NCBI GenBank assembly: GCA_902783025.1
Contig: CACZPH010000100.1
Location: 1 to 48,838 of the forward strand
Origin: an uncultured Eubacteriales bacterium
GTDB lineage: Bacteria; Bacillota; Clostridia; Christensenellales; Pumilibacteraceae
Direction of reading: 5' to 3'
DNA length: 48,838 bases
The notes below the pieces were generated by a model. That model had not been told where the DNA came from. It worked only from the letters and a program-made list of their open reading frames with translations, and made no database searches. Every line of letters begins with the position of its first letter. Within the stretch, counting starts at the first letter, position 1. The position numbers and the translations under genes are program-made. Shown piece after piece: positions 21,519 to 44,030 of this stretch.

Positions 21519-24500
21519 CTATTCTTCGTATATAAACGAATAAATCAGTTCTCCGAAATACTTGGACAGCACTAACTTACTGCGCTGTACGACGCGTTTT
21601 ACGGCGCCTTTCTTGGTACGTATCCTGTATTTGATCACGGCGGAAGCGCCCTCTTCGGTCAGTTTTTGCGCAAGCGCGTTTACGGCGTCGTCGACGTCGG
21701 CGGGATGAACGATCCCCTTAAAGCATCCGCTTACGTAATCGACAAATTCGTCGTATGTCGAGCAATCAAGCAATCCGACGGTTTCGCGGCTGGCAAAGAA
21801 CACTTCGCCGTCGCCGCTCGTTCCGCATATAAGCACCGCGCCGGGAAGTCCGCTCGTCACGTCGCGGAAATTGAACGACAACTGAGTCCGCGAAGCGTTG
21901 CTGATCGAATCGTCATACTGCTGATACGACGATCCTTCGCCGTTTATCTTGACCGAATACATCGCCTTGTCGGCTTTTTCCATAAGCGAAGTGAGCGTAT
22001 CCGCCTGAGCGGGGAACGCACAATAACCCATCGATACGCCGAAAGCGTACGAATTGCCGCTCGCCTTGCATTCGTGAGTCTGCATGGCGAAGCGCGCTAT
22101 CGACTTTTGCGCGGCGGCAAGATCGTCATACGGCATAAATATTACGAATTCGTCGCCGCCGGTTCGCATAGCGATCGCGTTTTTGCCGAAATGTTCTCTC
22201 ACTTCCGTGGCAAGAGCGATAAGGACTTTATCTCCCACGTCATGGCCGTAAACGTCGTTAAAACGCTTGAAATCGTTGATGTCAAGCTCGATAAGCATGG
22301 CGGGCGAATCGGGATGAGCGCTGATAAAGCTCTGAATGCCTCGCTCTCCGCCGCGACGATTGAGAAGACCGGTAAGCATATCGGTTTCGGCGAGTTCCGA
22401 GATAAGCTTCTGTTCCTCTCCCACGTCGATTATCATCTCGAATTTATACTTTGTTCCGCCTATCTCGATAAGAGAGTCTTTGACCGAATAATATTTGCGT
22501 TTCTTTTCGCTGAAAAAACCGAATTTCGAACTCTTGACTTCCGTAACGTCTTTGCAGAATCCGCAGGATCGTTCGCCCTTGTGAAACAACTCGAAGCACG
22601 TCATATCCGACAGGTCGCGGCTCGGCTGTACGCCGTACTCCTTTCTGCCGTAAGGATTAAGATAAACTATCTTATGCGTGTCGAGTCTCGAAATGCAGAC
22701 GGTTTCGGGCACATTGCCGAAAACGCCCTCGAAATACGCTATCACGTCAAGCTCCCCGACGTCGTGCGAAGACAGCCCGGCGAGCAAACCGAAAAGATCG
22801 TTTTCGTTTATACCCGCGTCCTTAAAATAGAGTATAAGTTCGGCTCCGTTACTGCCGGGAACGAATTGAGCCGTTTGCGCCATCCAGTTGTAATCGCCCG
22901 TTTCGGAACGAATGCGGAAATAGTTGACCACAAAGCCGTTGCCCGAACGTGCGATATCGCGGCGGAACGTCTCCACGTCGTTAAGCGCGGCAAAACGTTC
23001 CCTGTCGAGCGGATGCACGTATTCGGCGCAAAACTTATCGGTATGTTTCCCGATGCCTACGACTCTGTTTCCCACCGGAATAAAATGCGAAGTGCTGACC
23101 AGCGAACGCACCTCGTCTTTGGGTACGTTGAGCACGTAAATTTCGTTACAGCACAAATACAGCGAATTGAGCGCCGCGTCGACGCTTTCTTTCGCGGTCT
23201 GCGACTTCGTGACTCTCGATAATTCCACGACGTAAAGTTTCCTGCCGCCCATCCCGGCAAGAAAAGTTATGCCGAATTGTAAAAATCTGTTGCGATACGC
23301 GTAAATTATCGAATGTTGTTCGCCTTCTTTCATTTCGGCGGATACGAACACGCGGACTTTGTGAGCGAGGGAAGAACCGGGATCGTTGATACGCGATTCC
23401 GCCTCCGCTTCGCCCGTCACGCCGAGAGAAGCCGCTTCTTCCAAAAAAGTCCTGTTGGCGTAAAGCACCTTGAAATACGAACCGTCGTCTTCGAAAATCA
23501 CTATCGGCTTGTCGGTCACTAAATTGACTTTTCCTACCGCGTCGTAATAGGCGCGCATTTTATCGTCTTCTATTACGTAACCCTTGGCAAGACACCTTCT
23601 GATCGTTTTGTCCCACACGTGAGGTCTTCCGAAGTAAAAACCCTGCGCCTTCTGACAGCCTACGCTCTTGAGAAGCGCGGCTTGCTCGGCGTTCTCCACG
23701 CCTTCGCAGATCGACTGCGCGCCTATGCGCGAGATCATATCTATACTTGAATTAAGCACTCTTTCGGTGCGCTCGGATAAGCGCGCGAGAGTGTTCCTGT
23801 CGAGTTTTACGTCCGTAAAGCTTACCCCGGACAATACCGAGATCGACGAGTATCCGCTTCCGAAATCGTCCATTATTATACCGAATCCCGCGTTACGGAG
23901 CGCGCTTATCGTAGCGGATACGTGTTCGGAATCATACAGGAAAACGTTTTCGGGTATTTCGAAAGAGATCATCGAGTGCGGCACGCCGTATTCGGCGGTT
24001 TTGCGTAAAGCGTACTCGCATACGTCGAACGCAAAGAAATCCGAACCGGAAAGATTGACCGATACGGGCACCGTCGGCCGTCCCGTCTCGGCCTGCTTCG
24101 CCTGCATGCGGCACACCGAATCGATGACGTACTCGTCGAGCTTGCTGAGCATTCCGCATCTTTCGAGCGGCGCGATAAAATCGTCCGGGAGCAAAAGCCC
24201 GAACTCCGGATCTTCCCATCTCGACAGCGCCTCCATACCGCAAACGGTCTTGGTGAGCATTCTGACGACCGGCTGGTAATATACGTAGATATTGCCTTTT
24301 TCTATTGCGGATTCGAAATTGTTCTTTATAAACTCGTTAAGCCTGATGGTGTCGTCTATCCTATCGTCGTACACGTCGAAATCACGGTCGTGCCTGCTTA
24401 CTAACTGGCAAGCCGTGCGCGCCTTTTCGCACATGGAATAGACGTCTTCGAGATCGCTCGGACGATATACGCCCGCCCTTACGCCGATATATTTGCGCGT

Positions 24501-25556
24501 GCGGCGCATACGCAAAAGATCGAGCGCCCCGGCGAGTTTTTCTTCCGTATTTTCGTCCTCGGTAAACACGACGAAAGATTCGAAGTCTACTTTTGCGACT
24601 ATCGAATCGGGATACGCTTCGCCGATCACGTCGGCAAAGCTGCGCATAAGAGTATTCTCGTCCCTGCTCGTGAGCGCGTTAAACGAATGAAGTCCGTTAA
24701 AAGTGAAATAAATGCATACGGTTTTCTTGCCTTCGCGTTTGCGTTCCGCCACATACTGCGGCGCGGCGGCAAGCAGGAAATTAAGATTCGGGAGTTGAGT
24801 CGTGGTATCGAAAAACTTGTTGTCCTTGACCGACAGCCGCATCATAAAAGCGGGTTTGCCTCCCCAATCGAGTTCCTTGACTGTAGCGGACAGCCAGCGT
24901 CCCGAACGTCTTTCGTAAAGGAGCTGAGTCCCTTTGCCTATCATCGAGGCAAAATCAAACGCTTCGGTAGCGTCTTTGCCGTAAAAATACCGCCAAAAAG
25001 ACGCGCCGTCTTCGTGCCCTTCTACCGGCGGAATAAGATCGCAAAAAGCCTTGTTGTAATACAAAACGGTCGCGTCCGATCTGGAAACGACGACGGTTGG
25101 CTTACGATCTTCGCCGTAAAAAGAATGCGCTATTTCCTCAAAAGTCTTTTGTCCTTTAGTAACTTTGACTATATCGCTGACGTCCTCGTAGCGTATAACG
25201 AGCAATTCTTTTCCGTCCGCGCATTTCACCGTTTCGCCTCGGGCATGGATCGTCCTCTGCTTTCTCTTGCCGTTGCGTTCGCGGAACACCGCGTCGTACT
25301 TCTTGCCTTTCTCCATATAGTCGCGGATCGCGCCTTCTATTTTGGCCCTGTCCTCAATGTCGACAAATTCGAATTTGCGGGAGGCGAACATCTCCCGTAT
25401 TTTTTCGCGCGCCTTGCCTATCATGTCGCAGAATCCGTCGGATACGGCATAAACGCGCGGTCCGCCCGCAGAGGCGCATTCGAGCATAACGAAAGGGATC
25501 GGCGAACTTTCGATCGTCGATACGTCTTGTTGTGTAAAATCAAACTTTCGTTTCAT
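21519..25556 (-). CDS. Large PAS/degenerate-GGDEF/EAL/PAS/GGDEF cyclic-di-GMP enzyme
   Basis: A 1345-aa soluble protein that may both make and break cyclic-di-GMP. From the N-terminus: PAS-like sensors (about 10-240), a degenerate GGDEF domain (about 250-400, with VDFESFVVF where the GGDEF loop belongs), an EAL phosphodiesterase (about 410-665), two or three more PAS-like regions (about 680-1040, the last with SCGFC), a full diguanylate cyclase (about 1050-1215, RTGGDEFVIF near 1130) and a C-terminal PAS-like domain. The EAL domain keeps the metal and catalytic residues: MEALSRW, VNLSG, FEIPE, DDFGSGYSS, VKLDRN, CEGVEN and QGFYF. The cyclase lacks the RxxD inhibitory site five residues before GGDEF. 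No transmembrane segment is seen. It has its own promoter, after the terminator of the fibre-linked operon. Confidence 0.92.
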   Translation of the reverse strand: MKRKFDFTQQDVSTIESSPIPFVMLECASAGGPRVYAVSDGFCDMIGKAREKIREMFASRKFEFVDIEDRAKIEGAIRDYMEKGKKYDAVFRERNGKRKQRTIHARGETVKCADGKELLVIRYEDVSDIVKVTKGQKTFEEIAHSFYGEDRKPTVVVSRSDATVLYYNKAFCDLIPPVEGHEDGASFWRYFYGKDATEAFDFASMIGKGTQLLYERRSGRWLSATVKELDWGGKPAFMMRLSVKDNKFFDTTTQLPNLNFLLAAAPQYVAERKREGKKTVCIYFTFNGLHSFNALTSRDENTLMRSFADVIGEAYPDSIVAKVDFESFVVFTEDENTEEKLAGALDLLRMRRTRKYIGVRAGVYRPSDLEDVYSMCEKARTACQLVSRHDRDFDVYDDRIDDTIRLNEFIKNNFESAIEKGNIYVYYQPVVRMLTKTVCGMEALSRWEDPEFGLLLPDDFIAPLERCGMLSKLDEYVIDSVCRMQAKQAETGRPTVPVSVNLSGSDFFAFDVCEYALRKTAEYGVPHSMISFEIPENVFLYDSEHVSATISALRNAGFGIIMDDFGSGYSSISVLSGVSFTDVKLDRNTLARLSERTERVLNSSIDMISRIGAQSICEGVENAEQAALLKSVGCQKAQGFYFGRPHVWDKTIRRCLAKGYVIEDDKMRAYYDAVGKVNLVTDKPIVIFEDDGSYFKVLYANRTFLEEAASLGVTGEAEAESRINDPGSSLAHKVRVFVSAEMKEGEQHSIIYAYRNRFLQFGITFLAGMGGRKLYVVELSRVTKSQTAKESVDAALNSLYLCCNEIYVLNVPKDEVRSLVSTSHFIPVGNRVVGIGKHTDKFCAEYVHPLDRERFAALNDVETFRRDIARSGNGFVVNYFRIRSETGDYNWMAQTAQFVPGSNGAELILYFKDAGINENDLFGLLAGLSSHDVGELDVIAYFEGVFGNVPETVCISRLDTHKIVYLNPYGRKEYGVQPSRDLSDMTCFELFHKGERSCGFCKDVTEVKSSKFGFFSEKKRKYYSVKDSLIEIGGTKYKFEMIIDVGEEQKLISELAETDMLTGLLNRRGGERGIQSFISAHPDSPAMLIELDINDFKRFNDVYGHDVGDKVLIALATEVREHFGKNAIAMRTGGDEFVIFMPYDDLAAAQKSIARFAMQTHECKASGNSYAFGVSMGYCAFPAQADTLTSLMEKADKAMYSVKINGEGSSYQQYDDSISNASRTQLSFNFRDVTSGLPGAVLICGTSGDGEVFFASRETVGLLDCSTYDEFVDYVSGCFKGIVHPADVDDAVNALAQKLTEEGASAVIKYRIRTKKGAVKRVVQRSKLVLSKYFGELIYSFIYEE

Positions 25557-27416: not shown

Positions 27417-29625
27417 TGTTTCGCTCCTTTACATATTCGTATACCTTTTCGCGCGGCATGCTCTTCGCGTAGTAGTAGCCTTGGATCATATCGCAGCCGA
27501 GTTCTTTCAGAATTTCGACCTGTTCGGCTTTTTCGACGCCCTCGGCAATACACTCGAGCTTGAGGTCGCGCGCGATATTTATAATGTTTTTTACCAACGC
27601 TCTGTCGGTCTCGCTATCCACGATACCGTCGATAAACGCCTTGTCTATCTTGATCGTGCGGACGGGAAGTTTCTCAAGATAAAGCATCGAAGAGTACGCA
27701 ATACCGAAGTCGTCGATCTCCGCGTCGATACCGTTTTTACGTAATATCTCGAGTTTGAGAATAACTTCCTGCATCGAATACATCATCGTGCCTTCGATTA
27801 TTTCGATATGAACGGATCCGGGTTTAAGTCCGCGCGCACGGAATTCGGTAAGGAATTTTTCGATAAAGCCCATTTGCATAAGCTGTATAGGCGAAATGTT
27901 GATCGCTATCGAAACTTTGAAATCCTGCAATATCTTGGCGTAATCCATCGCGCGCTTGTAAATAAACTCTCCGAGTTCGACTATACAACCGTTCTTTTCC
28001 GCCGCCTCGACGAATTCCTGGTTGTGAAGTCCCATTTCGTTGCCGCCGATTATGCGGATGAGCGCTTCGACGCCTTTTACCTTGTCGGTCTTGAGATCGA
28101 TCTGCGGCTGATACCATACGTCGATATTGCCCGAAGAAAGCAACTGCATCATGCCTTTGCGCGTCGTAATGTCGAAAGTGCCGGACTTGAAGACGTTTGT
28201 TCGCAATACGTAATACGTCTGCGCCGCGGAAGTGGAAGCGTTATTGAGCGCACGGAACGCCATATTGATAACGGAATCGAGCGGCGTGTCTTCTTTGAGC
28301 GAGTCGAGTACGACCGCGCCCATACGAACGTCTGGCTTTATGACGTGCTGTTCGAATTCGATGAACGACGATATCTTTTCGGATATTTTGTTTATGTTTT
28401 TGATAAAGGCTTCGCGGGTGTTCCTGTCCTTGACGAACAGAATTACCTGACCGTTGACCTTATACATAATACCGTAATCCTTCAGATCGTCGGCGACTTT
28501 CTTTATCGCGACTTTAAGTCCCGAATCGAATACCTGCTCGCCGAACAGCATACGGTAATAGTTTGCCGACGGCAAACCGAACGCGACTATCATGCCTCCG
28601 TTGTAGTCTTCGGTCTTGACGTACTTGTTCCAGACAGGCAAGAAAACTTCGCCGTTATGCAGTCCGGTTGTCGGATCGGTATTATGTTCTTCGAGAAGGG
28701 CTTCGTATTCGTGCGCCATTACAGTAGCGTCGGATCCTACGAGTCTGTATTCCCCTATGCCCGCCGCCGGCGAAAACATAAGTACGCGCGGATTGCCTTG
28801 TTTGTCTTCGATCGCCAGCCTTATCGGCTCGGACGACGTCACCTTGTCTTCGAAATGGAAAAGCGAGGATTCGACGGTTTCTTTGATTTTGTCTTTGTCG
28901 AATTCGGCGGCGAATTTCTCGTCGATATACTTTACCTTGAGAGCGCGCGACATAACGAAGAAATACGAATCTACGTTTTTGACCTTGTACAGCGCTTTGT
29001 ACCTGTCGAGATAGAACTTGCGGCACAGCAGCATACACAGAGTAAGCAATACCAAAAACGCTATTATTTCGATTATGCTGACAAGCAGCGTGCTCGTCTG
29101 AGTCTGCGCGGTGGCGGATTCCGGAAGAACGCAAAGGATCTTGTCCGCCGCGCTCGCGCCTTTGTACTCGATATCCGCAAAATAATATTGACGCTCGCCC
29201 TCGCTCGTCCGCTGAACCACGACGTCGCAATTCTTAAAGGCTTCCGTGACCTTGTCGGGAGTCTTGAGCGTATTGCCGAGCCACGAAATAAACGCTTTTT
29301 TCCCGCCCGACATCATGCTTTCGTCGGTAGACGCTATAACTTCGCCATCCGGCGAAAGAATAGCGACCGACTCAAACTCGTACATTGAAAGTTCAGTCAC
29401 TATTTCGGAGTAGTTTTCTTCCGTACGCGCCTTGACCGTGTTGCCGTTATCGTCGGTCATTTCGTCAAGAACGGTGGTCGCGAGAACTTCGGCGGTGGAC
29501 TTGTTGACGTTTTGCGAACGCTGGGACACGACCGTCTGCGTAATCGCGCTGAATACGAATCCCGCGCCCACCATAAGCGCGGCGGTTACGAGGATCGTGA
29601 TTATGATTTTGGTTATATACTTCAC
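27403..29625 (-). CDS. Membrane sensor with an intact EAL c-di-GMP phosphodiesterase
   Basis: A 740-aa protein with TM1 (about 5-27), an extracytoplasmic sensing domain of about 150 residues, TM2 (about 180-203), a PAS-like and degenerate GGDEF region (about 210-455, with DPTTGLHNGEVFLP) and an EAL domain (about 475-735). The EAL active-site set is complete: GVEALIR near 521, INISPIQ, IEIIEG, DDFGIAYSS, IKIDKAF, AEGVEK and IQGYYYAK. It should lower cellular c-di-GMP in response to an outside signal. It overlaps the signal peptidase gene by four bases (ATGA) and the dead EAL gene by 14 bases, so it is translated as part of the same operon that a c-di-GMP riboswitch heads. Confidence 0.92.
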   Translation of the reverse strand: MKYITKIIITILVTAALMVGAGFVFSAITQTVVSQRSQNVNKSTAEVLATTVLDEMTDDNGNTVKARTEENYSEIVTELSMYEFESVAILSPDGEVIASTDESMMSGGKKAFISWLGNTLKTPDKVTEAFKNCDVVVQRTSEGERQYYFADIEYKGASAADKILCVLPESATAQTQTSTLLVSIIEIIAFLVLLTLCMLLCRKFYLDRYKALYKVKNVDSYFFVMSRALKVKYIDEKFAAEFDKDKIKETVESSLFHFEDKVTSSEPIRLAIEDKQGNPRVLMFSPAAGIGEYRLVGSDATVMAHEYEALLEEHNTDPTTGLHNGEVFLPVWNKYVKTEDYNGGMIVAFGLPSANYYRMLFGEQVFDSGLKVAIKKVADDLKDYGIMYKVNGQVILFVKDRNTREAFIKNINKISEKISSFIEFEQHVIKPDVRMGAVVLDSLKEDTPLDSVINMAFRALNNASTSAAQTYYVLRTNVFKSGTFDITTRKGMMQLLSSGNIDVWYQPQIDLKTDKVKGVEALIRIIGGNEMGLHNQEFVEAAEKNGCIVELGEFIYKRAMDYAKILQDFKVSIAINISPIQLMQMGFIEKFLTEFRARGLKPGSVHIEIIEGTMMYSMQEVILKLEILRKNGIDAEIDDFGIAYSSMLYLEKLPVRTIKIDKAFIDGIVDSETDRALVKNIINIARDLKLECIAEGVEKAEQVEILKELGCDMIQGYYYAKSMPREKVYEYVKERNNGKK

Positions 29626-30422
29626 TTGTCCTCCTCTCCTTGCGCTTTTTCGTCGCCGGTTTTTTCGTCGGGCTCTGCGGAAACGACGGGATCGTCGTCG
29701 GTTTCGTCTGTTTTTTCGCCGTTTTCAACGCAAGCAGTCTCGCTTGACGGATCGTTTGAGGCGGCCGAAGACGCGGAGTCCAAACCTAATTCGGCTCTTA
29801 ACTCCGCTTCTATGCGTTTGCGTTTTTCTTCTTCCGATTCTTTTGCTTTTTGGTTTTGCTTTTCGGTCTTTATTTTGTTTGCCTCGACCACTATCGAGCA
29901 AACTTCAATTCCGGCTATTACCAGAACGCCGGCGATAAGCACGACGAAAACTATCGTGCGGTTGTTTGTGAAAAAACCCAAAATCGCGCCGAAAAACGCG
30001 GATTTGCCTACTTTTTTCGCAAACGGGTGACTGGGAACTTTGTCACGGATCGGATTGGTTTTTTCATTTACGCCCTGCGTCCAAATAGTGCCGTCGTCCT
30101 CGATTTCGACTATGCGGTGGCAAATAAACTGCCCGTACATTTGCGACGAAGAGTCTTCGTTCTTGAATACGACGTCGTCGCCGACTTTGAGCGTAGACGC
30201 GTCGCAGTCCTTGGCTACTACGAGTTCGCCCACATGGATTTCGGGCTCCATCGATCCCGACTGAATAATATGGAAAGAGTAACCGAAAAACTTAACGTAG
30301 CCGTTTTTGCGCACGGAAATACCGGTATAGACGAGTATACCTATGCAGATCACCAATACGGCGACCGCGATCCCGGTCACGATTTTTCCGGCTAACGTTG
30401 ATTTTTTGTCGCTCTTTGCCAC
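29622..30422 (-). CDS. sipW: SipW-type (ER-type) signal peptidase I
   Basis: A 266-aa membrane peptidase of the SipW/S26B group, which uses a Ser-His rather than Ser-Lys pair and in Bacillus processes TasA and TapA. TM1 is at about 13-34; the box FFGYSFHIIQSGSMEPEIHVGELVV places nucleophile Ser57; QFICHRIVEI places His102; WTQGVNEKTNPIRD is the third conserved box. TM2 (about 148-170) is followed by a long charged cytosolic tail of about 90 residues ending in acidic repeats, which SipW itself lacks. The likely substrates are the SipW-type precursors encoded 6-12 kb upstream. It lies 13 bases after the DUF2357/rod gene and overlaps the EAL sensor gene by four bases. Confidence 0.93.
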   Translation of the reverse strand: MAKSDKKSTLAGKIVTGIAVAVLVICIGILVYTGISVRKNGYVKFFGYSFHIIQSGSMEPEIHVGELVVAKDCDASTLKVGDDVVFKNEDSSSQMYGQFICHRIVEIEDDGTIWTQGVNEKTNPIRDKVPSHPFAKKVGKSAFFGAILGFFTNNRTIVFVVLIAGVLVIAGIEVCSIVVEANKIKTEKQNQKAKESEEEKRKRIEAELRAELGLDSASSAASNDPSSETACVENGEKTDETDDDPVVSAEPDEKTGDEKAQGEEDK

Positions 30423-35310: not shown

Positions 35311-36189
35311 TTATTCCTCGGTTTTGTCTTCCGTAGGAGTCTGTTCCTCTTGTTTTGCCGCCATTTCCTTGAGAAGTTGAGCGCGGATCTGTTCGCGCAT
35401 TTCTTCTTCCTTCTTGGAGTTTTCGGCGGCGGCTTTGGCGTAAGCCTCTTCGCCCGCCATAACGTATCTGCGCTTGTTGTACTGCACGATATTGAATACG
35501 ACGAGCCCTATGCAATAGAGCATAATGAGCGCCGCGGGAAGCAAAACGCAAATCAAAAATCCGGTCTTGCTCTGAAGGAACAAAATGACGTTACCTATTC
35601 CGCTCGCCTTGCCCTCGAATTTGCCCTGAACGTCGTCGATAGTGCGCATAATAGAGTCCGCGGTAGGGTTGTTGTCGCCCTTGGTATAATAGCCTACGAC
35701 TCTGCCTTTCTCGTCGACTACTACCTCGATAATGCGGTGGGTGTCGAGAGCTTTCTGCGCGTGAATAGTATCCCAGAATGTAATGACGTCGCCGACTTTG
35801 TAACTTGCCTTTTCGGTGTTGTCGCCGGCGATCTTTACTTTGATGACGTCGCCGCGCGAGAAGTTGTCGGACTTTACCTTGCCGCTGCTGAAGTCTTTAG
35901 CCATGGAGTCCGACTCCACGGTATAGTACGCGTAACCGAAGAAAGTCGGATAACCGCGATTGCTCGATACGAGCGAGTTTACGACGATGATAACGGCAAA
36001 CAGCATGATTATCACGCTGAGCACGTTGATCGCTATCGAAACTATTTTTCCCGCTTTGCTTTGAGTCGCCGGCGCGGCGGGCGTAACGGGCGCCTCGGGC
36101 TCGTCCTGGGGCGCCGCCTCGACGGGATCGCCTGCGGTATGCTCTTCTTCCTTGATCTCTTCGGAAGCGTTAAGCTCTTTGTCTTCCAT
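35311..36189 (-). CDS. SipW-like signal peptidase I with an acidic N-terminal extension
   Basis: A 292-aa Ser-His signal peptidase, first gene of its operon. A 45-residue Pro/Glu-rich cytosolic extension precedes TM1 (about 47-71). Ser95 in the box FFGYAYYTVESDSM is the nucleophile, but the usual SGSMxP is SDSMAK, so the Gly and Pro are lost. His151 (DTHRIIEVVV) and the GDNNPTAD box (about 171-178) are intact. TM2 (about 208-232) is followed by a charged helical tail. It differs strongly from the second SipW-like enzyme at 29622, so the two may serve different precursors. ATG at 36187-36189 with GGAGG, downstream of a c-di-GMP-I riboswitch. Confidence 0.88.
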   Translation of the reverse strand: MEDKELNASEEIKEEEHTAGDPVEAAPQDEPEAPVTPAAPATQSKAGKIVSIAINVLSVIIMLFAVIIVVNSLVSSNRGYPTFFGYAYYTVESDSMAKDFSSGKVKSDNFSRGDVIKVKIAGDNTEKASYKVGDVITFWDTIHAQKALDTHRIIEVVVDEKGRVVGYYTKGDNNPTADSIMRTIDDVQGKFEGKASGIGNVILFLQSKTGFLICVLLPAALIMLYCIGLVVFNIVQYNKRRYVMAGEEAYAKAAAENSKKEEEMREQIRAQLLKEMAAKQEEQTPTEDKTEE

Positions 36190-36247
36190 AATTCCTCCGT
36201 TTTATATTTTATCCGGTATTTGTCGGACAGGCAAAACGGAAAAATTT

Positions 36248-36310
36248 GCAACTGGCTGCCATTTAAGGCCCTTTAGCTTTGCGTCGCAAACTTTCGTTTG
36301 TTTTGCCGAT
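36248..36310 (-). promoter_or_regulatory. Cyclic-di-GMP-I (GEMM-I) riboswitch no. 3, before the peptidase/AAA+ operon
   Basis: On the minus strand the aptamer reads GGCAAA, a hairpin ACAAAC-GAAA-GUUUGC, then GACGCAAAGCUAAAGGGCC and the 3' part GGCAGCCAGUUGC. These are the conserved GEMM-I elements: the GNRA loop, the GCAAAG segment with the intercalating adenine, and the AGCCAG(G)UUGC receptor. G20 of the pocket is G. No poly-U terminator follows. Instead UCCGUUUU (36233-36240) can pair perfectly with AAAACGGA at the ribosome binding site (36196-36203), and GUUUUGCC (36230-36237) can pair with the aptamer's own GGCAAAAC (36300-36307), so control is probably translational. Confidence 0.9.
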
Positions 36311-36340
36311 TTATTTCCAACAAAGTATAAAATATAAGTA

Positions 36341-41018: not shown

Positions 41019-41056
41019 AATAAAAAACAGCCGTACAAATACTTGCAACTGGCTGT
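41019..41056 (-). terminator. Riboswitch-controlled terminator before the 304-aa gene
   Basis: ACAGCC (part of the aptamer's 3' strand, 41051-41056) pairs with GGCUGU (41027-41032), with inner pairs GU/AC and GCAA/UUGU around a GUAU loop, followed by UUUUUUAUUUU. Because the stem uses aptamer bases, ligand binding should prevent it, making an ON switch. Confidence 0.82.
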
Positions 41057-41114
41057 CATAAATACCTTTTAGACCCTATAGTTTTGCGCCGCAAACTTTC
41101 GCTTGTTTTGCCTA
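41045..41114 (-). promoter_or_regulatory. Cyclic-di-GMP-I (GEMM-I) riboswitch no. 2, before the 304/1201-aa genes
   Basis: The minus strand reads GGCAAA, hairpin ACAAGC-GAAA-GUUUGC, GGCGCAAAACUAUAGGGUCU and UAUGACAGCCAGUUGC. The pattern is GEMM-I with G20 and the GCAAA adenine kept, but GACGCAAAGC is GGCGCAAAAC, two changes next to the binding core. The terminator at 41019-41056 overlaps its 3' end. A second copy of the UUUUGCC anti-aptamer element lies at 41014-41020. Confidence 0.9.
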
Positions 41115-41145
41115 TTATGGAAACTCTCCATATTTTTACTGTTAG

Positions 41146-41739: not shown

Positions 41740-42489
41740 TTAGTCAACTCCAAGAGTAACGGTGATGTCATACTCGTCGGGAGTAAGGCCGGTGTTAGCG
41801 GTCTTGCAGGCTGCGTTGGTACCATCGAAATAAGCATAAACCTTAATGGTCTGCGCTTCGGTGGTTACTTGGTTGCTGATAGCAGTATCAGAGCTACCGG
41901 CGTTCTTAACAACGACACCTGCGTTAGCGCCGATTACAAGAACGGTAACAGCGTCGGCAAGTTTGTCTTCAGCACTGTCGGTTCCCTTTACGGTAACGGT
42001 AACGCCTTTAACCTTAAGGTTGGTAGCAGCAGCGACATCTGCGGACGGACGAAGTCTTACTTTGTATTCGGTAAGAAGAGTGTACTTGGTAAGATCTCCG
42101 GAAGCTACTTTGTTCCACTTCTGGCTTGCTGCTTTTGCGTGGTTGTTGGGATCATCGCTGAAGGTGTATGCCCATACGGGAGTGGTAGCGCCTGCATAAG
42201 CAGTCATATCCGAACCGTCGTCCTCAACCGATGCAGCCGGAACTACGGGATAGATACCGGTGGTCGTGCTGGAAGCTGTAGCTTCGATCTGAGCTTCGGT
42301 GGTGCTGAATTCTCCGGTAGACGTAACGATCTGCAAGAATTTCGTATCGCTCTTTGCTTTAATGCTCATGCCCTTAGCGGTTACGGTGGTGTTCATCGAG
42401 AACCATGCGAAGGTGCTTGCCGCGGTTACGGAAATCGCGAGTACAAGTGCGAAGATTGACAAAATCAAACTTCTGTGTGCTTTTTTCAT
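41740..42489 (-). CDS. TasA-like fibre subunit with SipW-type signal (249 aa), probable major subunit
   Basis: A 249-aa precursor with the signal MKKAHRSLILSIFALVLAISVTAASTFAWF (SipW-type STFAWF ending). The mature part of about 220 residues is beta-rich and Thr/Ala/Val-rich, has no cysteine in its first 150 residues and only one near the end, and ends in the strand EYDITVTLGVD, as in TasA/camelysin-like subunits. Codon use is unlike neighbouring genes: it prefers GTA/GTT, GCT/GCA and ACC/ACG with few rare-looking tcg/cgc codons, a sign of high expression. It has a strong GGAGG site in an A-rich leader and a strong terminator behind it. It should be the main polymer subunit, comparable with TasA, but this is inference. 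Confidence 0.87.
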   Translation of the reverse strand: MKKAHRSLILSIFALVLAISVTAASTFAWFSMNTTVTAKGMSIKAKSDTKFLQIVTSTGEFSTTEAQIEATASSTTTGIYPVVPAASVEDDGSDMTAYAGATTPVWAYTFSDDPNNHAKAASQKWNKVASGDLTKYTLLTEYKVRLRPSADVAAATNLKVKGVTVTVKGTDSAEDKLADAVTVLVIGANAGVVVKNAGSSDTAISNQVTTEAQTIKVYAYFDGTNAACKTANTGLTPDEYDITVTLGVD

Positions 42490-42564: not shown

Positions 42565-43350
42565 TTAGCCGAGATACGACTTGAATGTCATATCTATTTC
42601 GAGTGTGCCGTCGATGATCGAGTCTACGCAATCTTCGTCCCAGCCCTCGATCCACATTACAACCGTGTACTTGTGTATCTGGTTGCGCTCTATCGAATCA
42701 ATAAAGAGCTTTGCTACCCTGCTTCCGGTAAGGAAAGGCGTGGTTGCGTAGGGCTTTACGTAGTCGCGCTCGGACTCTATGCCGTCTTCCTTGAGCTCGG
42801 TTCCGTCGTCAACCATTGCGTTGTCCGCGGTGAGCACTTCCGCCGTTCCGTCGTCCTTGGGCGCCGCGAAGATCTCCGTCGTACGTTCGCCCGAGGCGTC
42901 CGTAATGAGCATGATCCTTATCGCTTTCTCGATGCCGCGCGTCGCTTTGTTGATGTTGACCTCCGCGGAGTATCCGATCGCTATCTCCGAAGTGTTTTTG
43001 AGATAGAACGAATATGCGAAATACCTTCCGTTTGCGGTGTCGCTCTTAAGCCCGCTGCCCTCGTCGATATCTTCGGGTATGAACTTGTACGTTGTGTCCG
43101 TTATGCCCTTGATACCTTTGGTCGCCAGGACGCTCGTCGCGTCTACTCCGCTGAACGCGCCCGTTTCACTGAGCGAGAGCGAAATCGACACGTCGTTGTC
43201 GACCGATACGACGAAGTTTCCTACATTGTTGCCGTATACGCTCAAGCCCGTCAGTGCGATCAGCAGTACGCCGGTCACGATTATCGCGAACCAGGATATA
43301 CGTTTCAAGAACAAACGCAACGACCAACGATCTAATAACTTTTTAAGCAT
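42565..43350 (-). CDS. Membrane-anchored TasA-like accessory protein (261 aa)
   Basis: A 261-aa protein with a basic start and a transmembrane or signal segment (about residues 20-40, WFAIIVTGVLLIALTGLSVYG) and a beta-rich outer domain. It contains GRYFAYSFYLKNTSEIAIGYSAEVNINKAT (about 105-135), the pattern of a TasA/camelysin strand pair, and ends in IIDGTLEIDMTFKSYL. The signal has no TFAWF-type ending, so it may stay in the membrane as an anchor or nucleator, a role TapA has in Bacillus; this is inference. The frame opens at a TTG (43362) within the ribosome binding site; the ATG at 43348-43350 with GGGAG is the start. It is the first gene after riboswitch no. 1 and precedes the major subunit by 75 bases. 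Confidence 0.83.
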   Translation of the reverse strand: MLKKLLDRWSLRLFLKRISWFAIIVTGVLLIALTGLSVYGNNVGNFVVSVDNDVSISLSLSETGAFSGVDATSVLATKGIKGITDTTYKFIPEDIDEGSGLKSDTANGRYFAYSFYLKNTSEIAIGYSAEVNINKATRGIEKAIRIMLITDASGERTTEIFAAPKDDGTAEVLTADNAMVDDGTELKEDGIESERDYVKPYATTPFLTGSRVAKLFIDSIERNQIHKYTVVMWIEGWDEDCVDSIIDGTLEIDMTFKSYLG

Positions 43351-43358
43351 GCCTTCTC

Positions 43359-43401
43359 CCAAAAAAAATTACCGTCCGATACCCACTGGTATCGTCGGCA
43401 A
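43359..43401 (-). terminator. Riboswitch-controlled terminator before the accessory gene
   Basis: UUGCCG-A-CGAUACC-AGUG-GGUAUCG-GA-CGGUAA gives 13 pairs (one G-U) and runs into UUUUUUUU. The first bases (UUGCC) belong to the 3' strand of the aptamer, so ligand binding should weaken it, making an ON switch. Confidence 0.85.
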
Positions 43402-43462
43402 CTGGCTACCTATATCGTTAGGCCCTTTAGCTTTGCGTCCTTGTCTTGCGACAAGTTTGCTA
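43397..43462 (-). promoter_or_regulatory. GEMM-I riboswitch no. 1 with A at position 20, before the TasA-like unit
   Basis: The minus strand reads AGCAAA, hairpin CUUGUC-GCAA-GACAAG, GACGCAAAGCUAAAGGGCC and UAGGUAGCCAGUUGCC, a clear GEMM-I aptamer. By alignment with Vc2 the pocket base 20 is A where the other two copies have G. G20A versions are known to bind 3',3'-cyclic AMP-GMP as well as, or instead of, c-di-GMP. Confidence 0.9.
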
Positions 43463-43474
43463 TTGAACGAGTTT

Positions 43475-43503
43475 ATTTTACAATATTCTTTTGGCTCTGT
43501 CAA
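43475..43503 (-). promoter_or_regulatory. Promoter of the accessory/TasA-like unit
   Basis: Perfect TTGACA (43498-43503) and TAAAAT (43475-43480) with a 17-base spacer, just before the aptamer. Confidence 0.88.
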
Positions 43504-43925
43504 GTGTTTTTTAAAAAATTTTTAAACTTTTTTTCGATTTTTTTCTCCTCTTTTTATTATTTTTTGCCGTTATTCGAATATTTATTTATACTGCTTTGCC
43601 ATATTTGTAAATTTTCCGCCGCTTTGCAGGCGGGATCGTGAGATACTTTTGAGCCGCGCCTACTTAATATTATGCGCCTTAAGCGCAAAACTTGCAAAAA
43701 GAAATTTTCGCCGCTACGCAAAATCGGCAAAAAAGTTTTCGTAAAGCCTCCGTCGCCCGCGCGTGCCGCGCAAACGCGCGTATCATAAATTAAGCGCACG
43801 TAAGCGCACGCGCCGGCGCACAACGCGCGTGCGCGCGAAAAGGTGAGGCGTCCGCTTGACTTTTAACAGCGATAACATAAGGATAATTATTCTTCTCAAA
43901 GTAAGCGATCGGCACTCTCGCCGCT

Positions 43926-44030
43926 GTCATTGAGCGAAGCAAAGAATCTTCGGTATTGTACTATTGCGCCGCTTATGCGGAATACCGCACCCGAATACCC
44001 CCTCACAGTCGGTCCGCGGCGACTCGCCGC
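43926..44030. repeat. Interspersed GTCATTGAGC-type repeat, copy 2
   Basis: GTCATTGAGCGAAGCAAAGAATCTTCGGTATTGTACTATTGCGCCG matches the end and part of the middle of the repeat at 41275-41470, including the GCGAAGC...GAATCT core. The other end is not clear. Confidence 0.6.

Follow-up and report, generated by a model that had tools for sequence, protein, structure and literature searches.

In the genome of an uncultured Eubacteriales bacterium (assembly GCA_902783025.1; family Pumilibacteraceae, order Christensenellales), a surface-protein locus carries three GEMM-I riboswitch aptamers, and one of them has A at the position that corresponds to G20 of the Vc2 aptamer. According to two studies, A20 is the hallmark of the Geobacter aptamers for 3',3'-cyclic AMP-GMP (cGAMP) (PMC6456294, PMC9481103). 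Does this aptamer sense cGAMP as well, or is its ligand c-di-GMP? A first-pass annotation of the window (the entire 48,838-nucleotide stretch of DNA that we analyzed, from contig CACZPH010000100.1) proposed that it senses cGAMP or else that it has relaxed specificity. We considered the aptamer and its terminator, the cyclases of the genome, and the base at position 20 across the order.

One of three GEMM-I aptamers has A20

The entire 1.72 Mb genome contains three matches to GEMM-I (c-di-GMP-I, RF01051), and all of them are in this locus (Table 1). Copy 1, which lies ahead of the gene for T1, aligns over model positions 1-87 in a whole-model match (E = 5e-10) that exceeds Rfam's gathering cut-off of 35 bits. 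Its Rfam score is the highest of the three (copies 2 and 3 score 61.9 and 60.4 bits). The first-pass annotation had placed this aptamer at 43397-43462, which is the core of the slightly longer real one.

The covariance-model alignment bore out the reading of A at position 20 in copy 1, which is the mark of GEMM-Ib, and of G in copies 2 and 3. Might a better alignment move the A elsewhere? It stays at position 20, because moving it breaks two pairs at the base of P2, G21-C46 (43460/43435) and C22-G45 (43459/43436), which fix the register; the alternative alignment was ruled out on this basis. Copy 1 also has the ligand-contacting bases A47 (43434) and C92, and its GNRA tetraloop in P2 is GCAA. 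The base equivalent to C92 is C in all three aptamers, in both the covariance-model and the R1 alignments. Copy 1 is unusual in that J1/2 is apparently 7 nt (UUCAAUA) where 6 are usual, and in that its short P1 has about 3 pairs when read in the canonical register.

Table 1. Features of the riboswitch locus, with positions in the window
Feature	Position	Strand	Basis
Sigma-70-type promoter TTGACA-17-TAAAAT, just 5' of copy 1	43475..43503	-	11/12 consensus positions; predicted
GEMM-I aptamer, copy 1 (A20)	43394..43471	-	RF01051, 62.7 bits; R1, 76.1 bits
A at Vc2 position 20, copy 1	43461	-	cmscan alignment (model position 11) and R1 alignment
C92 equivalent (model position 83), pairs with ligand G; also inside 5' arm of terminator	43398	-	Alignments; fold
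Intrinsic terminator of copy 1, UUGCCG.CGAUACC/GGUAUCG..CGGUAA, then eight U	43361..43401	-	Sequence and fold
T1, 261 aa, N-terminal membrane helix and beta-rich domain; first gene under copy 1; start codon 43350, RBS GGGAGAAGG	42565..43350	-	Orthologs behind GEMM-I aptamers
T2, exported protein, 249 aa, TFAWF-type (SipW-like) signal segment; 3' of T1	41740..42489	-	Sequence and relatives
GEMM-I aptamer, copy 2 (G20), then terminator CAGCC..GGCUG-U6	41041..41122	-	RF01051; sequence
T3, exported protein, 304 aa, ATLAWF signal segment	40077..40991	-	Sequence and relatives
T4, exported surface protein, 1201 aa	36440..40045	-	Sequence and relatives
GEMM-I aptamer, copy 3 (G20), ahead of SipW gene	36244..36317	-	RF01051
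SipW-type signal peptidase 1	35311..36189	-	NF046067, 4.8e-24; TIGR02228, 1.2e-14
SipW-type signal peptidase 2	29622..30422	-	NF046067, 3.6e-18; TIGR02228, 1.7e-17
PAS/EAL/GGDEF protein, 1345 aa; GGDEF motif and canonical selectivity Asp (NDVYGHDVGD)	21519..25556	-	Domain search and motif reading

The genes of the locus

The genes behind copy 1 had been described as a TasA-like unit. This is fair for the locus, given its TFAWF and ATLAWF signal segments and its two SipW-type peptidases, but it finds no support for T1 itself. T1 has no matches in Pfam or NCBIfam, no sequence match in PDB, and no confident Foldseek match for its AlphaFold2 model (pLDDT 84), and we rejected the idea that it is a homolog of TasA or camelysin. 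The model for T2 was poor (pLDDT 44), and we did not use it.

Orthologs of T1 lie behind GEMM-I aptamers in many Christensenellales MAGs. More broadly, homologs are found in Christensenellales and other Clostridia, many of them behind such an aptamer. We examined two other species of this genus, and both lack T1 as well as GEMM-I aptamers; across the family, T1 is present in only 3 of 74 genomes. The locus may therefore be mobile, or it may be lost often. The window also contains, at 43925-43949, the sequence TGTCATTGAGCGAAGCAAAGAATCT, which we take to resemble a dispersed intergenic repeat found in many bacteria.

Copy 1 is a predicted ON switch

Copy 1 is followed by an intrinsic terminator with a single hairpin (UUGCCG-A-CGAUACC-AGUG-GGUAUCG-GA-CGGUAA and then eight U; -17.6 kcal/mol when folded alone), and then by the RBS and ATG of T1. 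We call this terminator from its sequence and fold; the hairpin is absent from the output of a consensus terminator scan. Both C92 and C93 are within the 5' arm of the hairpin. Because the terminator takes up these bases, ligand binding and termination should compete, so we predict an ON switch. Without ligand, the nascent RNA would form the hairpin (43401-43361) and transcription would end before T1. When a cyclic dinucleotide is bound, the aptamer would retain the 3' strand that includes C92, and transcription would run into T1 and T2. ON logic with a terminator that overlaps the C92 strand is established for pilM of Geobacter (PMC9262584).

Copy 2 has the same layout as copy 1, while copy 3 has no clear terminator after it. 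Within the region of copy 3 (36190-36317), GGCAAAAC of the aptamer could pair with the downstream GTTTTGCC, and CCGTTTT could pair with AAAACGG at the Shine-Dalgarno sequence. The lack of a clear terminator and these possible pairings suggest that copy 3 might control translation.

The cyclases of the genome appear to be ordinary

Hypr GGDEF enzymes have Ser in place of the Asp that contacts the base (PMC7288161, PMC6456294). The genome contains six GGDEF matches, and the GGDEF motif is intact in four of these. All four have the canonical Asp of GHxxGD (NDVYGHDVGD, NDTGGHLQGD, NDTGGHDAGD, and NDTFGHAVGD), and none has the Ser of Hypr enzymes at this residue (D344 of PleD). The first of these is the only intact GGDEF in the window and lies near residue 1130 of the 1345-aa protein, just as the first-pass annotation had it; comparing its selectivity residue with Hypr enzymes, as was proposed there, gave Asp. 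The statement that the window has no Hypr-type cyclase agrees with our results and extends to the intact domains of the genome. We also found no match in the genome to SMODS CD-NTases (the DncV type; PF18144). The assembly is 88.7% complete, so some cyclase could be missing from it.

A20 is widespread in Christensenellales and changes repeatedly

Across the order and the T1 loci, we aligned 139 distinct aptamers. Of the 138 in which position 20 could be called, 112 have G, 25 have A, one has C, and none has U; one more was unread at this position. All 25 A20 aptamers have the G21-C46 pair. In 16 other genomes with A20 aptamers, all 80 intact GGDEFs that were read have Asp, excluding from the count some lower-scoring GGDEF domains of six genomes (G164, G194, G218, G077, G202, and G365) that were unread. 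The intact GGDEFs that we checked in genomes with only G20 aptamers have the canonical Asp as well. We had looked in the 17 genomes for Hypr GGDEFs that track with A20, and there were none among the intact domains examined. We also considered an association of A20 with C93 (21/25 versus 67/112 of the G20 aptamers; Fisher p = 0.023, ignoring relatedness), but we did not use it.

T1 allows orthologous aptamers to be compared. On a tree of those T1 proteins whose genes have an aptamer just upstream, position 20 requires 5 changes between A and G for 6 A-bearing rows, and it requires 6 such changes in a wider set; gene and leader could in principle have separate histories, but they adjoin. At least four of the changes are within well-supported clades. 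These separate the window from L194, L080, L196, and L197; L131 from L067, which belong to one genus and whose intact GGDEFs are all canonical; L199 and L209 from L108; and L119 and L129 from L210. The base at position 20 thus changes frequently, with no visible change in the cyclases.

We noticed several unusual arrangements during the survey. At L209 (5553-5912), from a Christensenellaceae MAG, three complete GEMM-I riboswitches lie in tandem before T1; position 20 is G in the first two and A in the third. In two other genomes, a single 5' half-aptamer with A20 is followed by multiple 3' halves (AYAGCCAGTTRCC): three at L122 (6942-7200, in G365) and two at L120 (5667-5826, in G202). Each of these 3' halves has its own terminator and U-run, and large exported proteins are encoded downstream. 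In such an arrangement, several terminators would have to share one 5' half, each in its turn. When we searched 396 genomes of the order for this pattern, these two were the only ones that had it, and a reversed control gave no hits. At L079 (1834-2006, in G393), two GEMM-I aptamers that are 4 nt apart are unusual at ligand-contacting bases: one has C20 and one has U92. Finally, at L254 (5848-5925), from an Acholeplasmataceae MAG, a GEMM-I aptamer with G20 and U92 precedes a homolog of T1; we would expect its U92 to favor a ligand with adenine as the contacted base.

Which dinucleotide does copy 1 sense?

Published measurements show that the effect of A20 varies. The A20 aptamers of Geobacter show up to ~1600-fold selectivity for cGAMP (about 1600-fold for Gm0970; PMC8835794), and the A20G substitution turns Gm0970 into a c-di-GMP binder (PMC6456294). 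Desulfobacca acetoxidans has similar c-di-GMP-I aptamers within 7 kb of each other that differ at base 20; the A form binds cGAMP markedly better and binds c-di-GMP perhaps slightly less well (PMC9481103). In Cd1, changing the equivalent base (G11A or G11C) has little effect on c-di-GMP binding (PMC9262584). The same paper states that bases in lower P2 influence selectivity, and it cites Keller et al. 2018 for the binding of c-di-GMP by cGAMP riboswitches via a protonated adenine. Together, the D. acetoxidans and Cd1 data, as against those from Geobacter, indicate that A20 allows an aptamer to bind cGAMP, but that this base alone does not abolish its recognition of c-di-GMP.

Lower P2 differs between copy 1 and a Geobacter RNA. 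The published ligand contacts (PMC7288161, PMC6274999) are G21, C46, and A47 of Vc2, and A14, C15, and A41 of 4YAZ, whose P2 runs from C15 to G40. An offset of six maps C15 and G40 onto positions 21 and 46, so we infer that the Geobacter RNA has C21-G46. This pair, which is seen in 4YAZ and is not an established requirement for the class, is absent from copy 1 and from all 25 A20 aptamers. By these bases, the A20 aptamers of this group appear to resemble the engineered G20A variant of Vc2 and not the Geobacter RNA.

Because copy 1 has A20 on an otherwise c-di-GMP-I pocket (G21-C46 and C92), its RNA most likely accepts c-di-GMP as well as cGAMP. In the cell it would answer to c-di-GMP, which is the expected product of the genome's GGDEFs, possibly at a shifted threshold. 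Extrapolating from other RNAs is weaker for copy 1 than it might be because its J1/2 length and P1 differ. Overall, we think that copy 1 is probably a functional GEMM-I ON riboswitch whose specificity is relaxed or whose threshold is shifted, and that its ligand in the cell is most likely c-di-GMP. Two considerations weigh against this: the selectivity of the Geobacter aptamers shows that A20 can matter greatly, and a cyclase could lie in the missing part of the genome.

If copy 1 responds to c-di-GMP, what is A20 for? We tentatively consider two sub-cases, and our confidence in them overlaps. One possibility is that A20 tunes the switch: with lower affinity for c-di-GMP or faster release, T1 and T2 would turn on at higher c-di-GMP than the genes that are controlled by G20 aptamers. 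This would fit the A, G, and G aptamers within 7 kb here, the tandem triplet at L209, and the perhaps slightly weaker c-di-GMP binding of the natural A form (PMC9481103). But in five genomes (G087, G303, G194, G218, and G164), we found only A20 aptamers, so staging is not the general rule, and the affinity changes at the equivalent base of Cd1 are small (PMC9262584). The other possibility, which we hold no more firmly, is near-neutral drift: for c-di-GMP, G20 and A20 would serve equally well, and the variant itself would be without function. The repeated interchange of A and G at one orthologous site, with no correlated change in cyclases, is consistent with drift, but G is replaced almost only by A, which implies that the position is constrained.

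It is unlikely that copy 1 is a true GEMM-Ib sensor of cGAMP, in a locus that answers two dinucleotides and with a cyclase that is unrecognized or encoded in sequence that the assembly lacks. The Geobacter hallmark is there, the retention of C92 leaves the A20/C92 pair that is expected for cGAMP, the recurrence of A20 before T1 could reflect selection, and the assembly is incomplete. However, none of the intact GGDEFs examined from this genome and the 16 other A20 genomes is of the Hypr type, the genome has no SMODS protein, the Geobacter C21-G46 pair is missing from the A20 aptamers, and A and G alternate between congeneric species with the same type of GGDEF. These observations leave the first-pass proposal of cGAMP sensing unsupported, while its alternative of relaxed specificity gains support from the A20 aptamer of D. 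acetoxidans (PMC9481103) and the Cd1 mutants (PMC9262584).

A still less likely scenario is that cGAMP serves Christensenellales as an additional signal. Its source would be an enzyme outside the Hypr GGDEFs and the SMODS CD-NTases, and its sensors would be A20 aptamers with G21-C46 that arose repeatedly at this one surface-protein locus, beside aptamers for c-di-GMP. Finally, the short P1 and 7-nt J1/2 might indicate that copy 1 is in decay and no longer functions, but this is very improbable, as it has the best Rfam score of the three and its promoter, terminator, and RBS are intact.

A20 is often taken as a sign of cGAMP signaling, but since it recurs here at an orthologous site, in genomes whose intact GGDEFs, as far as examined, are all ordinary, A20 should not be used alone to annotate cGAMP riboswitches. 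The sister loci that differ by A or G at one base are a natural test set for the role of that base in the cell.

Comparison with known systems

The context of copy 1 recalls the SipW-TasA loci for matrix fibres in Bacillus, which also have SipW-type peptidases beside small exported proteins with TFAWF-type signals. In contrast, T1, T2, and T3 have no sequence match or confident fold match to TasA, and the locus described here is predicted to be under riboswitch control.

Among riboswitches, copy 1 shares its whole fold, G21-C46, and C92 with the c-di-GMP-I aptamers Vc2 and Cd1 (RF01051), and differs from them by A20, the 7-nt J1/2, and the short P1. With the GEMM-Ib aptamers of Geobacter (4YAZ, pilM, and Gm0970) it shares A20 and C92, and like pilM it is a predicted transcriptional ON switch whose terminator captures the C92 strand. 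It differs from them in its context, a SipW-linked surface-protein locus instead of metal-reduction genes, and in its genome, where no Hypr GGDEF was seen; and where 4YAZ has C21-G46, copy 1 has G21-C46.

A natural parallel is cluster 3 of D. acetoxidans (PMC9481103), where, as here, a single A20 copy lies within 7 kb of otherwise similar G20 copies; in that cluster there is pairing with AdoCbl riboswitches and binding was measured, while our comparison is based on sequence. The engineered G20A variant of Vc2 (PDB 4YB1) likewise has A20 on a pocket with G21-C46 and C92, and copy 1 is a natural RNA of this kind with another J1/2 and P3.
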